The notes under the pieces were generated by a model. It saw only the letters and a program-made list of their open reading frames with translations, ran no database searches and was not told where the DNA came from. 64,000 nt of DNA from Zhaonella formicivorans (lineage in GTDB: Bacteria > Bacillota > DUOV01 > Zhaonellaceae), in contig NZ_CP085524.1 in assembly GCF_004353525.1 (NCBI RefSeq), forward strand, positions 2,638,142 to 2,702,141, given 5' to 3'. The position numbers were made by a program, and so were the translations under genes. Positions 11,400 through 63,537 of this stretch are shown here, one piece after another; position 1 is the stretch's first letter, and each line of letters opens with the position of its first letter.

Positions 11400-11585
11400 A
11401 ACCTGTTTCAAGCAACAGGTTTAGATTGTAGACAAAGCCAGCATGTATTATTTCGCTCTGGACAAGCTCCTACGCCGTTACCGGCAGCATAGCTGCCGAC
11501 GGCTGGGGAAACCAGTCCCGCTCCATAATACATGCTGGCTGATAATAATTTGTCGAAGGTCTGAACCTGTCTCAAGCGACAGGTT
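11400..11585 (-). repeat. Terminator-inserted palindromic element, copy 1 (with duplicated hairpin flanks)
   Basis: The 142-base element (11422-11563) reads on the minus strand from CAGACCTTCGACAAATTATT to GCTTTGTCTACAAT. Inverted arms AGCCAGCATGTATTAT and ATAATACATGCTGGCT enclose an inner GCCGTCGGCAGC hairpin. It is flanked by AACCTGTTTCAAGCAACAGG (11400-11419) and AACCTGTCTCAAGCGACAGG (11564-11583), two diverged copies of one terminator hairpin. The T-run on the minus strand follows only the distal copy. The element is co-oriented with the bactofilin gene whose terminator it splits. Confidence 0.88.
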
Positions 11586-19985: not shown

Positions 19986-20096
19986 ATAGGTGATTCCTCC
20001 TTTTAAATTTTTTAGAGTAAGCTTAAAAGCTTTAACATTATATTACTTGTAAAAGCAACTAAAATATGTAAACTGTTTTACAAGAAAAATAAAAAG

Positions 20097-20284
20097 TTGC
20101 CACTAATGAGTAGCAACTCAGACTGTCGACAAACTATTAATAGCCAGCATGTATTATGGAGCGGGACTGGTTTCCACAGCCGTCGGCAGCTATGCTGCCG
20201 GTTACGGCGTAGGAGCTTGTCCAGAGCGAAATAATACATGCTGGCTTTGTCTACAAGCTGAATTGCCACTAATGAGTAGCAACT
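20097..20284 (+). repeat. Terminator-inserted palindromic element, copy 2 (with duplicated hairpin flanks)
   Basis: The element (about 20119-20262) begins CAGACTGTCGACAAACTATT and ends CTTTGTCTACAAGCTG. Arms are AGCCAGCATGTATTAT and ATAATACATGCTGGCT, with an inner GCCGTCGGCAGC/GCTGCCGG hairpin. Flanks 20097-20118 and 20263-20284 are an identical 22-base sequence that is itself a hairpin (GTTGC...GCAAC). On the minus strand a T-run follows only the left, distal flank, so the split terminator belongs to the minus-strand gene at 20295. The element lies antisense to that gene. Confidence 0.9.
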
Positions 20285-22703: not shown

Positions 22704-23458
22704 ATGGAAAGAAAAATTAACCATTGCGTATACAACATAAATATGTTGGAAGAGGACGAAGAAGCTTTACGAAGAAGGCCATACAGAATGGCGCTATACC
22801 TGGCGGCTAAAACGGTTTTTCACCCCCACGTGGAAAATTACCGGCATCACCGTAGAGGACGATTATCTCAGGCTGTCTAACGGCTGGAGGAAACCGCCGC
22901 TCAAGGTAAAGCTGCCCGTAAGGCTGAAGGAATTGGAAATCAAACAGGTTCAGCTGGTCTGGCATCGCAACGGCTACTGGCTGCATATAGCGGTAGTCAA
23001 GCCCGCCCTGGAGAGAGTACAGGGTGATGCTGTAGCATCCGTAGACCCGGGCGAAGTCCATGCCTTAACTCTGACCGATGGCCAGGAAGCCTTGGTCCTC
23101 AGCGCTCGGCATTTGCGTTCTCTGCGCCGCCTGCGAAATAAAACTATGAGAAAATTCCAGAAGGCTATTTCCCGCACCCATAAAGGCTCCAACCGCCGGA
23201 GGAAACTCCTGTCGGCCAAGTACCGCTTTTTGAATTGAATCGGAGATCAAATATCTCATGCCGAACATGCCATCACGAAAATGGCAGTAGACTGGTGCCT
23301 GCAACGTGGAGCAAAGAAGGTCTACATTGGCGACCCGCAGGGTGTAAAGGAGCAGGACAGCGGCCGGCATCACAACCAGAGGATGAGCCAGTGGAGCTTC
23401 GGCCGGCTGCGGGATCTCCAAACTGGGAGACACAACCTCGTCATTTTCTTAAAGGCCT
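22704..23458 (+). pseudogene. TnpB (IS200/IS605-type) pseudogene
   Basis: A decayed RNA-guided-nuclease-type TnpB gene. Fragments are ALRRRPYRMALYLAAKTV, then after a one-base shift in the T-run near 22813 TPTWKITGITVEDDYLRL, then VASVDPGEVHALTL (RuvC-I Asp), then a TGA near 23238, and finally KVYIGDPQGVKEQDSGRHHN and SQWSFGRLRDL. RuvC-III and the zinc finger are missing. A hairpin CCTATCCCC-TTGT-GGGGTAGG near 22600 may be an old element end. No intact TnpA is present. Confidence 0.75.
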
Positions 23459-25254: not shown

Positions 25255-25433
25255 AACCCCGCTAAGGAGTTACAGTGTATAGACAAAGCTCAATTTATTA
25301 CTTTGCTCTGGGCCAGCTCTCACGTGATGACTTTTAGCAAAGCCCCAGCCTAGAGGAAACCAGTCCTGCTCCATAATATATGCGGGCTGATAATAGTTTG
25401 TCGACGGTCTGAATAAATACGCTATTAATATTT
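25255..25433 (-). repeat. Terminator-inserted palindromic element, copy 5 (diverged)
   Basis: The element (25272-25411) reads on the minus strand from CAGACCGTCGACAAACTATT to GCTTTGTCTATACACTGT. The conserved blocks GGAGCAGGACTGGTTTCC and CCCAGAGCAAAGTAATAAAT are still clear, but the arms pair less well. The distal side has a terminator hairpin AACTCCTTAGCGGGGTT with a T-run. The proximal side (25412-25433, AATAAATACGCTATTAATAT) looks like a decayed version of the same sequence and contains the lepB stop codon. Its central loop is of the copy-4 subtype. Confidence 0.7.
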
Positions 25434-32441: not shown

Positions 32442-32646
32442 AAAACCTGGTAATAAACATATTTACCAGGTTTCAGACCGTCGACAAACTATTAACAGCA
32501 AGCATGTATTATGGAGCGGGACTGGTTTCCACAGCCGTCGGCAGCTGTGCTGCCGGCAACGGCGTAGGAGCTTGTCCAGAGCGAAATAATACATGCTTGC
32601 TTTGTCTACAAGTTAAAACCTGGTAATAAACATATTTACCAGGTTT
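32442..32646 (+). repeat. Terminator-inserted palindromic element, copy 3 (best-preserved flanking duplication)
   Basis: The 141-base element (32474-32614) begins CAGACCGTCGACAAACTATT and ends GCTTTGTCTACAAGTT. Arms are AGCAAGCATGTATTAT and ATAATACATGCTTGCT. Flanks 32442-32473 and 32615-32646 are a perfect 32-base direct repeat that is itself a hairpin (AAACCTGGTAA pairing with TTACCAGGTTT). On the minus strand a T-run follows only the left flank, marking it as the original terminator of jag. The element lies antisense to jag. Confidence 0.92.
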
Positions 32647-35747: not shown

Positions 35748-37112
35748 ATGTTGTCTGCAGAATTAGATGAGATTTGGAGCCGCACTCTGGATATCCTGGA
35801 AAATGAGTTGAGCCGGCCAAGTTTTGAAACCTGGTTAAAATCAACCAGGCTCCTTAACTTCGATGGCCTGACCATGCTAATCGGCGTTCCTAACGAGTTT
35901 GCAAAGGATTGGCTGGAAACCCGTTATTATAATATGATCAAGAATACAATTCAATTAATCATAGATCAGGATGTAAACTTAAGCTTTGTTCTGCCTTCAA
36001 CCAAAGAATATATGTTATACAGCAAGCGAACGGAAAACAAACCGCATGCGGTTCCGCATATTCAGACAACCGGTTCTGAAGAAACGCCCCACTTAAACAG
36101 TAAGTATACTTTTGATACTTTTGTCATTGGAAACAGCAACCGGTTCGCTCATGCAGCCTCGCTGGCAGTAGCAGAAACACCTGCCAAAACCTACAATCCT
36201 TTATTTATCTATGGCGGAGTTGGTTTAGGCAAAACTCATCTGATGCACGCCATAGGCCATTACGTAATAGAACACAATAAAAAAGCAAGAGTCCTCTATG
36301 TTTCTTCTGAAAAGTTTACCAATGAACTGATAAATTCCATTCAAGACGGCAAAACTGTTGAGTTCAGAAATAAATACCGTAACATAGACGTTCTGCTAAT
36401 TGACGACATTCAGTTCCTGGCAAAAAAAGAGAGGACCCAGGAAGAATTTTTCCATACATTTAATGCCCTGCATGAAGCCAACAAACAAATTGTAATTTCC
36501 AGCGACAGGCCCCCAAAAGAGATTCCCACTTTGGAAGACCGTTTGCGGTCGCGCTTTGAATGGGGGTTAATCACCGATATACAACCCCCTGACCTGGAAA
36601 CGAGAATAGCAATTTTGCGTAAAAAAGCCAGTCTGGAAGGTTTGGAAATGCCTGATGAAGCAATGATGACTATAGCCAATAAGATCCAATCCAATATCAG
36701 GGAACTGGAAGGTGCTCTAATCCGAGTAGCTGCGTACGCTTCAATCAGCAAAAGGACCATTACCGCTGAAATAGTTGAAGAAGCTTTAAAAGATCTGGTG
36801 CCGACCGCTAAACCTCCGGAAATCACCATCTCCAGAATTCAAGAAAAAGTAGCTAAGCACTTTAACTTGAGGGTTGAGGAATTTAAAGCAAAGAAAAGAA
36901 CCAGAAGCGTTGCTTTTCCCAGGCAAATTGCCATGTACTTAGCCAGGGAGCTAACCGACTTATCTTTACCCAGGATTGGGGAGGAATTTGGGGGCAGGGA
37001 TCACACCACGGTTCTTCATGCCTGGGATAAAATATCCTCTGATTTAAGGGCCGATGGAAACTTGCAGCAAATTATCGACCAGATTACTGAAGCAATTAAA
37101 TCACCCAACTAG
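35748..37112 (+). CDS. dnaA: Chromosomal replication initiator DnaA
   Basis: 454-residue AAA+ initiator with all four domains: N-terminal interaction domain ([23 protein letters not shown]), variable linker (about 85-115), ATPase ([26 protein letters not shown]) and the C-terminal DNA-binding domain with [15 protein letters not shown]. It melts oriC and loads helicase. ATG 35748 after GGGGGTAAG. It is transcribed away from oriC, with dnaN next. Confidence 0.98.
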
Positions 37113-63332: not shown

Positions 63333-63537
63333 TTCTCACCTTATGAATGTAGGTGAGTCAGACTGTCCACAAACTATTATGAGCTCGAATGTTATTATGG
63401 AGCGGGACTGGTTTCGCTCTGGGCTGGCGGCTTTGCCAAAAGTCAACGCGTGCGAGCTTGTCCAGAGCGAAATAATACATTCGAGCTTTGTCTATGAGAT
63501 TGTTTACAAGCTAACTCACCTTATGAAATGTAAGGTG
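63333..63537 (+). repeat. Terminator-inserted palindromic element, copy 4 (with duplicated hairpin flanks)
   Basis: The element (about 63356-63510) begins CAGACTGTCCACAAACTATT. Arms are GAGCTCGAATGTTATTAT and ATAATACATTCGAGCT, changed on both sides relative to copies 1-3. The central loop has GGCGGCTTTGCCAAAAGTC, the second subtype. Flanks CTCACCTTATGAATGTAGG and CTCACCTTATGAAATGTAAG (each closing with GTGAG) are diverged copies of one hairpin, and TTTTTT follows only the right, distal one. This is the gyrA terminator, and the element is co-oriented with gyrA. Confidence 0.88.

Follow-up and report, generated by a model that had tools for sequence, protein, structure and literature searches.

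What kind of element is the hairpin that recurs in this DNA of Zhaonella formicivorans, and what keeps its two arms complementary? The preliminary description of the window (the whole 64,000-nt stretch that was analysed) noted compensatory changes in the arms, and proposed a functional structured RNA or, as an alternative, hairpin ends acted on by a transposase on single strands. The explanation that we regard as very likely on the whole is an orphan MITE of the IS1182 type, which duplicates terminators on insertion and carries a conserved folded module. The element and its ends, the terminator duplication, the matching insertion sequence in a relative, the covariation and the spread of the module can all be read at the level of sequence.

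Structure and copies of the element

The element lies where it had been placed, with an exact extent of 20095-20284, and the arms quoted for its copies, AGCCAGCATG/CATGCTGGCT, AGCAAGCATG/CATGCTTGCT and AGCTCGAATG/CATTCGAGCT, are present in the sequence. The 24-nt hairpins at its two edges, which had been overlooked, are the duplicated target site. The features in the window are as follows:

20095-20118, no strand: left copy of the duplicated target, terminator-like hairpin AGTTGCCACTAATGAGTAGCAACT, found again at 20261-20284 (23/24 identical)
20119-20133, + strand: left terminal inverted repeat CAGACTGTCGACAAA; the same end is on about 40 copies and on the IS1182-family element of the relative G340
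20142-20246, + strand: structured module of about 105 nt, recognised by structure and covariation (match to covariance model R1, 124.9 bits)
20246-20260, + strand: right terminal inverted repeat TTTGTCTACAAGCTG, with which the G340 element also ends on the right
20261-20284, no strand: right copy of the duplicated target hairpin, repeat of 20095-20118
11422-11563, - strand: second MITE copy (L036), module 11436-11540, flanks AACCTGTYGCTTGARACAGGTT
25273-25411, - strand: degenerate MITE copy (L049), module 25287-25388, without a clear target duplication
32474-32615, + strand: MITE copy (L038), module 32497-32601, perfect 31-nt hairpin duplication at the flanks
63359-63513, + strand: diverged MITE copy (L050), module 63382-63487, arms AGCTCGAATG/CATTCGAGCT, 24-nt hairpin duplication

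The MITE is about 142 bp long and present in about 55 copies in the genome; imperfect ends, CAGACYGTCGACAAA and TTTGTCTACAAGCTG, enclose the palindromic module of about 105 nt. It is non-coding, with no conserved reading frame and no transposase of its own. The module consists of a 16-bp arm, the internal loop GGA/GAA, the pairs GC/GC, the loop G/AGA, the helix GGAC/GUCC, further helices and an apical hairpin. The blocks GGAGCGGGACTGGTTTCC and GTCCAGAGCGAA, previously taken to be unpaired, contain the pairs GC/GC and GGAC/GUCC. The core GGAGCGGGACTGGTTTCC had 57 matches with at most two mismatches in the 3.31-Mb genome, and all but two of them were element copies. Covariance model R1, made from 59 copies, located the five modules listed above in the window; across the genome it gave 87 rows, and many of these show a copy again on its opposite strand. 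The window copy folds far below shuffled sequences on either strand (z about -10), as is expected of any palindrome. No match to the element was found in phages, plasmids and viral contigs, and no description of such an element in the literature, where the letters GGAGCGGGACT were also searched for.

Some variants were seen in the same genome. In a longer version of the module, about 60 nt (ATTAATTGGGGACATTCCTCAG...AAGAGGTGTGTCCCCTGACCGCTG) stand in place of GTCCAGAGC; they form an inverted repeat themselves and resemble a nested small element (L010, L017, L022, L024, L033, L040, L043, L045, L047, L048 and L061). The module is inverted relative to the terminal repeats at L020, L026, L032, L054 and L063, and also at L189, L191 and L192 in the related genome G083, as if it had been flipped via recombination between its arms. 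Elsewhere in the window, positions 22780-23214 (+) match OrfB_IS605 weakly (PF01385, 20.3 bits, below the cut-off) and are probably a decayed TnpB-type gene. The replication origin probably lies in the window too, since the dnaA C-terminal domain is found at 36828-37034.

Terminator hairpins at the insertion sites

To characterise the target, the similarity of the two flanks was scored for the 44 elements with two recognisable ends and compared with that of mismatched flank pairs. It was above the 99th percentile of the mismatched pairs in 37 of the 44 and above their maximum (12) in 35. In 37/44 measurable copies, the element is flanked by direct repeats, 16-31 nt long, which are themselves terminator hairpins; besides the 31-nt hairpin at L038, a palindrome is perfectly repeated over 18 nt at L025. 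The right flanks fold at a mean of -10.4 kcal/mol, compared with -4.2 kcal/mol for random 32-mers. The length of the repeats and the stability of these folds indicate that the target is a stem-loop resembling an intrinsic terminator and, as the flanks are terminator hairpins themselves, that insertion duplicates the terminator whole.

The same target and the same duplication were found in a second family, B, with elements of about 265-408 bp that have the same ends and another interior (L065, L066, L068, L071, L073 and L076). L161 also belongs to this family, and composites of the module MITE and family B occur at L014, L017, L027 and L056.

A candidate partner transposase in a relative

A transposon with the same ends as the MITE (CAGACTGTCGACAAA.../...TTTGTCTACAAGCTG) was found in G340, where it is 1.6 kb long. 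Reading by eye, we saw duplicated terminator hairpins around seven of its eight copies, one of which is nested in the duplication of another. At L185 in G340 one IS1182-family copy adjoins another inside the duplicated terminator, which suggests that one target was used repeatedly. The encoded protein of 492 aa belongs to the IS1182 family (NF033551 at 464.6 bits, where the cut-off is 270, together with PF05598 and PF13751). It is full-length only in G340 among nine carriers, and had no match in the window's own genome, so mobilisation of the MITE is deduced from G340. The IS1182 copies of the own genome were rejected as partners because their ends differ (GAGCTAATTGCG/GCAAAAAGCTC), and the IS1202 family because its ends are TGT...ACA, while those here are CAG...CTG.

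The MITE and the G340 insertion sequence share both the terminal inverted repeats and the kind of target duplication. We propose that CAGACYGTCGACAAA-type ends were moved in trans by a DDE transposase of the IS1182 family, which would recognise intrinsic-terminator hairpins or the cruciforms that they may form. The ends of the element would be joined at both feet of the terminator stem, and repair would then duplicate the entire stem-loop, leaving the element between two terminator copies with the terminator kept whole. Between the ends, the module of about 105 nt would be maintained as a hairpin whose internal loops stay fixed and which folds on the GGAGCGGG strand, and would act as a single-stranded nucleic acid, more likely as transcribed RNA than as DNA.

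Covariation in the module

The compensatory changes in the arms proved to be real. In the model-guided alignment A2, 95.4% of the cells are paired, and 398 are changed on both sides compared with 84.5 after shuffling; sliding the partner by 1-3 columns lowers the pairing to 32-41%. We applied a test modelled on R-scape, in which a background-corrected G statistic was compared with a null evolved along a FastTree tree. With E calculated over all column pairs, 11 pairs fell below 0.05, every one of them within the structure. In structure-free alignments the same test gave only one significant pair (A1) or two (all copies); the copies of the window's genome alone, aligned without guidance, gave none.

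As A2 leans towards the structure, we also used a test that needs no alignment, in which the six arm bases outside the ATG/CAT anchors were compared in unique haplotypes and partners were shuffled within each genome. Pairing was found in 221 of 246 cases, against a mean of 175.8 and a maximum of 208 in 20,000 shuffles, so that every shuffle was surpassed. Once all copies are used, covariation in the module is far beyond chance. The CTGG/CCAG pairing, reported for all five copies in the window, does not hold elsewhere; relatives have GGACTAG/GTCCGTAG, and G083 and G117 have GGCG/CGCC in place of GGAC/GTCC.

Such double-sided changes would need no selection if each palindrome corrected itself, one arm being copied onto the other by template switching during replication. 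The arms are long perfect palindromes, and those of G083 differ by 12 double-sided and no single-sided changes, as templated correction would give. We think this origin of the pairing unlikely, though such conversion may have contributed in the arms. The imperfect terminal repeats have kept their differences in 43/44 copies, the asymmetric internal loops are retained across families, and the bias described below, of G.U over A.C, would not be expected.

Strand of the fold and orientation of the copies

Mutation alone would yield G.U and A.C intermediates equally. In the arms, we counted 27 G.U origins and 9 A.C origins (p = 0.004), and in helix 4 U.G pairs are retained, with no A.C. Judging from this excess, folding probably takes place on the GGAGCGGG strand. 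The excess is compatible with RNA or single-stranded DNA.

The orientation of the copies is random in relation to genes; next to codirectional neighbours 16 are sense and 15 antisense, and 17 copies lie between convergent genes. A cis-acting 3'-UTR element on a fixed strand was rejected on this ground. Orientation to replication is random as well (33 leading and 26 lagging, p = 0.43), and mobility of single-stranded DNA from the lagging strand was rejected since there is no strand bias. The target duplication and the lack of such a bias also set the element apart from single-strand (Y1/HUH) transposons and REP sequences. We do not favour the second proposal of the preliminary description, a transposase that acts on single-stranded hairpin ends, since the partner transposase is of the DDE type and duplicates its target.

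REP and REPIN elements (RAYT, Y1 transposases) are dispersed hairpins with conserved mismatches and sometimes paired inverted units, as here. The hairpin described here differs from them in being much longer, in its DDE-type ends and target duplication, and in having no strand bias.

The module in other genomes

R1 was searched against 398 genomes of the phylum and found the module in 10 of them, distributed over six families, usually in many copies and sometimes with other ends; named carriers are Tepidanaerobacteraceae and Thermoanaerobacterales MAGs. The arms are wholly different between families (GGTCTCTATG/CATAGAGACC, GGGCATCACG/CGTGATGCCC and CGGGCGAATG/CATTCGCCCG), and the asymmetric internal loops persist, as does the core formed by GGAGCGGG and CC(AG/GT)AGCGRA. 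The universal core of the hairpin is GGAGCGGGnn...nnCC(AG/GU)AGCGRA.

Most copies in G002, G145 and G302 have neither these ends nor the terminator duplication, and the module is therefore not simply a part of this MITE. In G302 the units are paired and inverted; two or three of them lie within a repeat about 390 bp long whose ends are different (L139, L148, L156 and L167-L172). At L140 in G185 the end is different, yet the copy also lies between two terminator copies. An Rfam match to TwoAYGGAY RNA (48.4 bits, gathering threshold 43) adjoins a module copy in G145 (L160:1228-1384); as part of this sequence is also found near the module copy L144, the match may belong to a mobile repeat.

What the module may do

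One rival reading, to which we would give slightly less than an even chance, treats the module as a structured RNA that has its own function, transcribed from the copies themselves or by read-through from flanking genes, with the MITE merely spreading it. Covariation in the helices on either side of conserved asymmetric loops points to this, as do the conservation, on one strand, of U.G pairs and purine mismatches, the G.U excess, and the persistence of the module, with differing ends, in several families. The covariation, the shuffles and the G.U excess support selection on a single strand that folds. The identification as an RNA fares less well: the copies are MITEs with IS1182-type ends, sense and antisense copies are equally frequent, which argues against a cis-acting RNA, and an Rfam search of the module at the gathering threshold and at a permissive one, as had been advised, gave no match. 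In addition, G.T pairs in single-stranded DNA would produce a bias of similar sign. RNA is modestly favoured over DNA for the module.

Alternatively, the hairpin may be a DNA site to which, when extruded into a cruciform or a single strand, a transposase or another recombinase binds during mobility. It would suit such a site that the module occurs only in mobile repeats, that in some copies (L020, L026, L032 and L189) it is turned round with respect to the ends, and that G302 has it as paired inverted units. In the G340 insertion sequence and the family-B elements, ends and target are the same but the module is absent, so IS1182 mobility does not need it, and no replication-strand bias is seen; a DNA site of this kind seems improbable to us. 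A short protein (MYYGAGLVSTAVGSYAAGYGVGACPERNN...) is refuted as a general explanation and very improbable, for although an 84-codon frame starts within the left arm, no more than 36 of 88 copies have it open, and the lengths of the module fall into every residue class modulo 3.

Returning to the structured RNA, our preferred guess is that the element profits from it, through something that it protects, processes or titrates. It is conceivable, though rather doubtful, that this hairpin of about 105 nt, carried on several unrelated mini-transposons in at least six families of one phylum, represents a mobile structured RNA of a new class, which as RNA would promote its own spread or act on host transcripts.

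Comparison with known systems and significance

IS1272, of the IS1182 family, targets terminator stem-loops and removes them (PMC5678879, PMC4923244). IS1272, its IS1182-family relatives and TnSha1 resemble the present system in their IS1182-family DDE transposase and in their stem-loop targets, often gene terminators, without a sequence consensus (PMC5678879, PMC4923244). IS1272 and TnSha1 differ in that they remove or replace the stem-loop without duplication, whereas here it is duplicated whole (PMC5678879, PMC4923244); IS1272-type replacement by deletion does not fit our elements, as the stem-loop is present twice. The IS1202 family is similar in its long target duplications (16-28 bp in one subgroup) and differs in transposase and ends (TGT...ACA), and a hairpin target was not found there (PMC10132070). 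Like the prokaryotic MITEs ERIC, RUP, BOX and Correia, the element is short, non-coding, intergenic and palindromic, with inverted ends, tens of copies and no transposase of its own; unlike them, it has the duplication of a terminator hairpin and a module whose internal loops are conserved and which is common to elements with different ends and to distant families (PMC10969869).

The module offers a conserved fold without a known family and with rich natural covariation. The insertion sites provide dozens of natural cases in which a DDE element appears to have duplicated an entire terminator stem-loop. This outcome was otherwise only drawn, by the authors of the IS1272 model, as an alternative pathway (PMC5678879; PMC4923244), and with these cases structure-directed targeting becomes testable.
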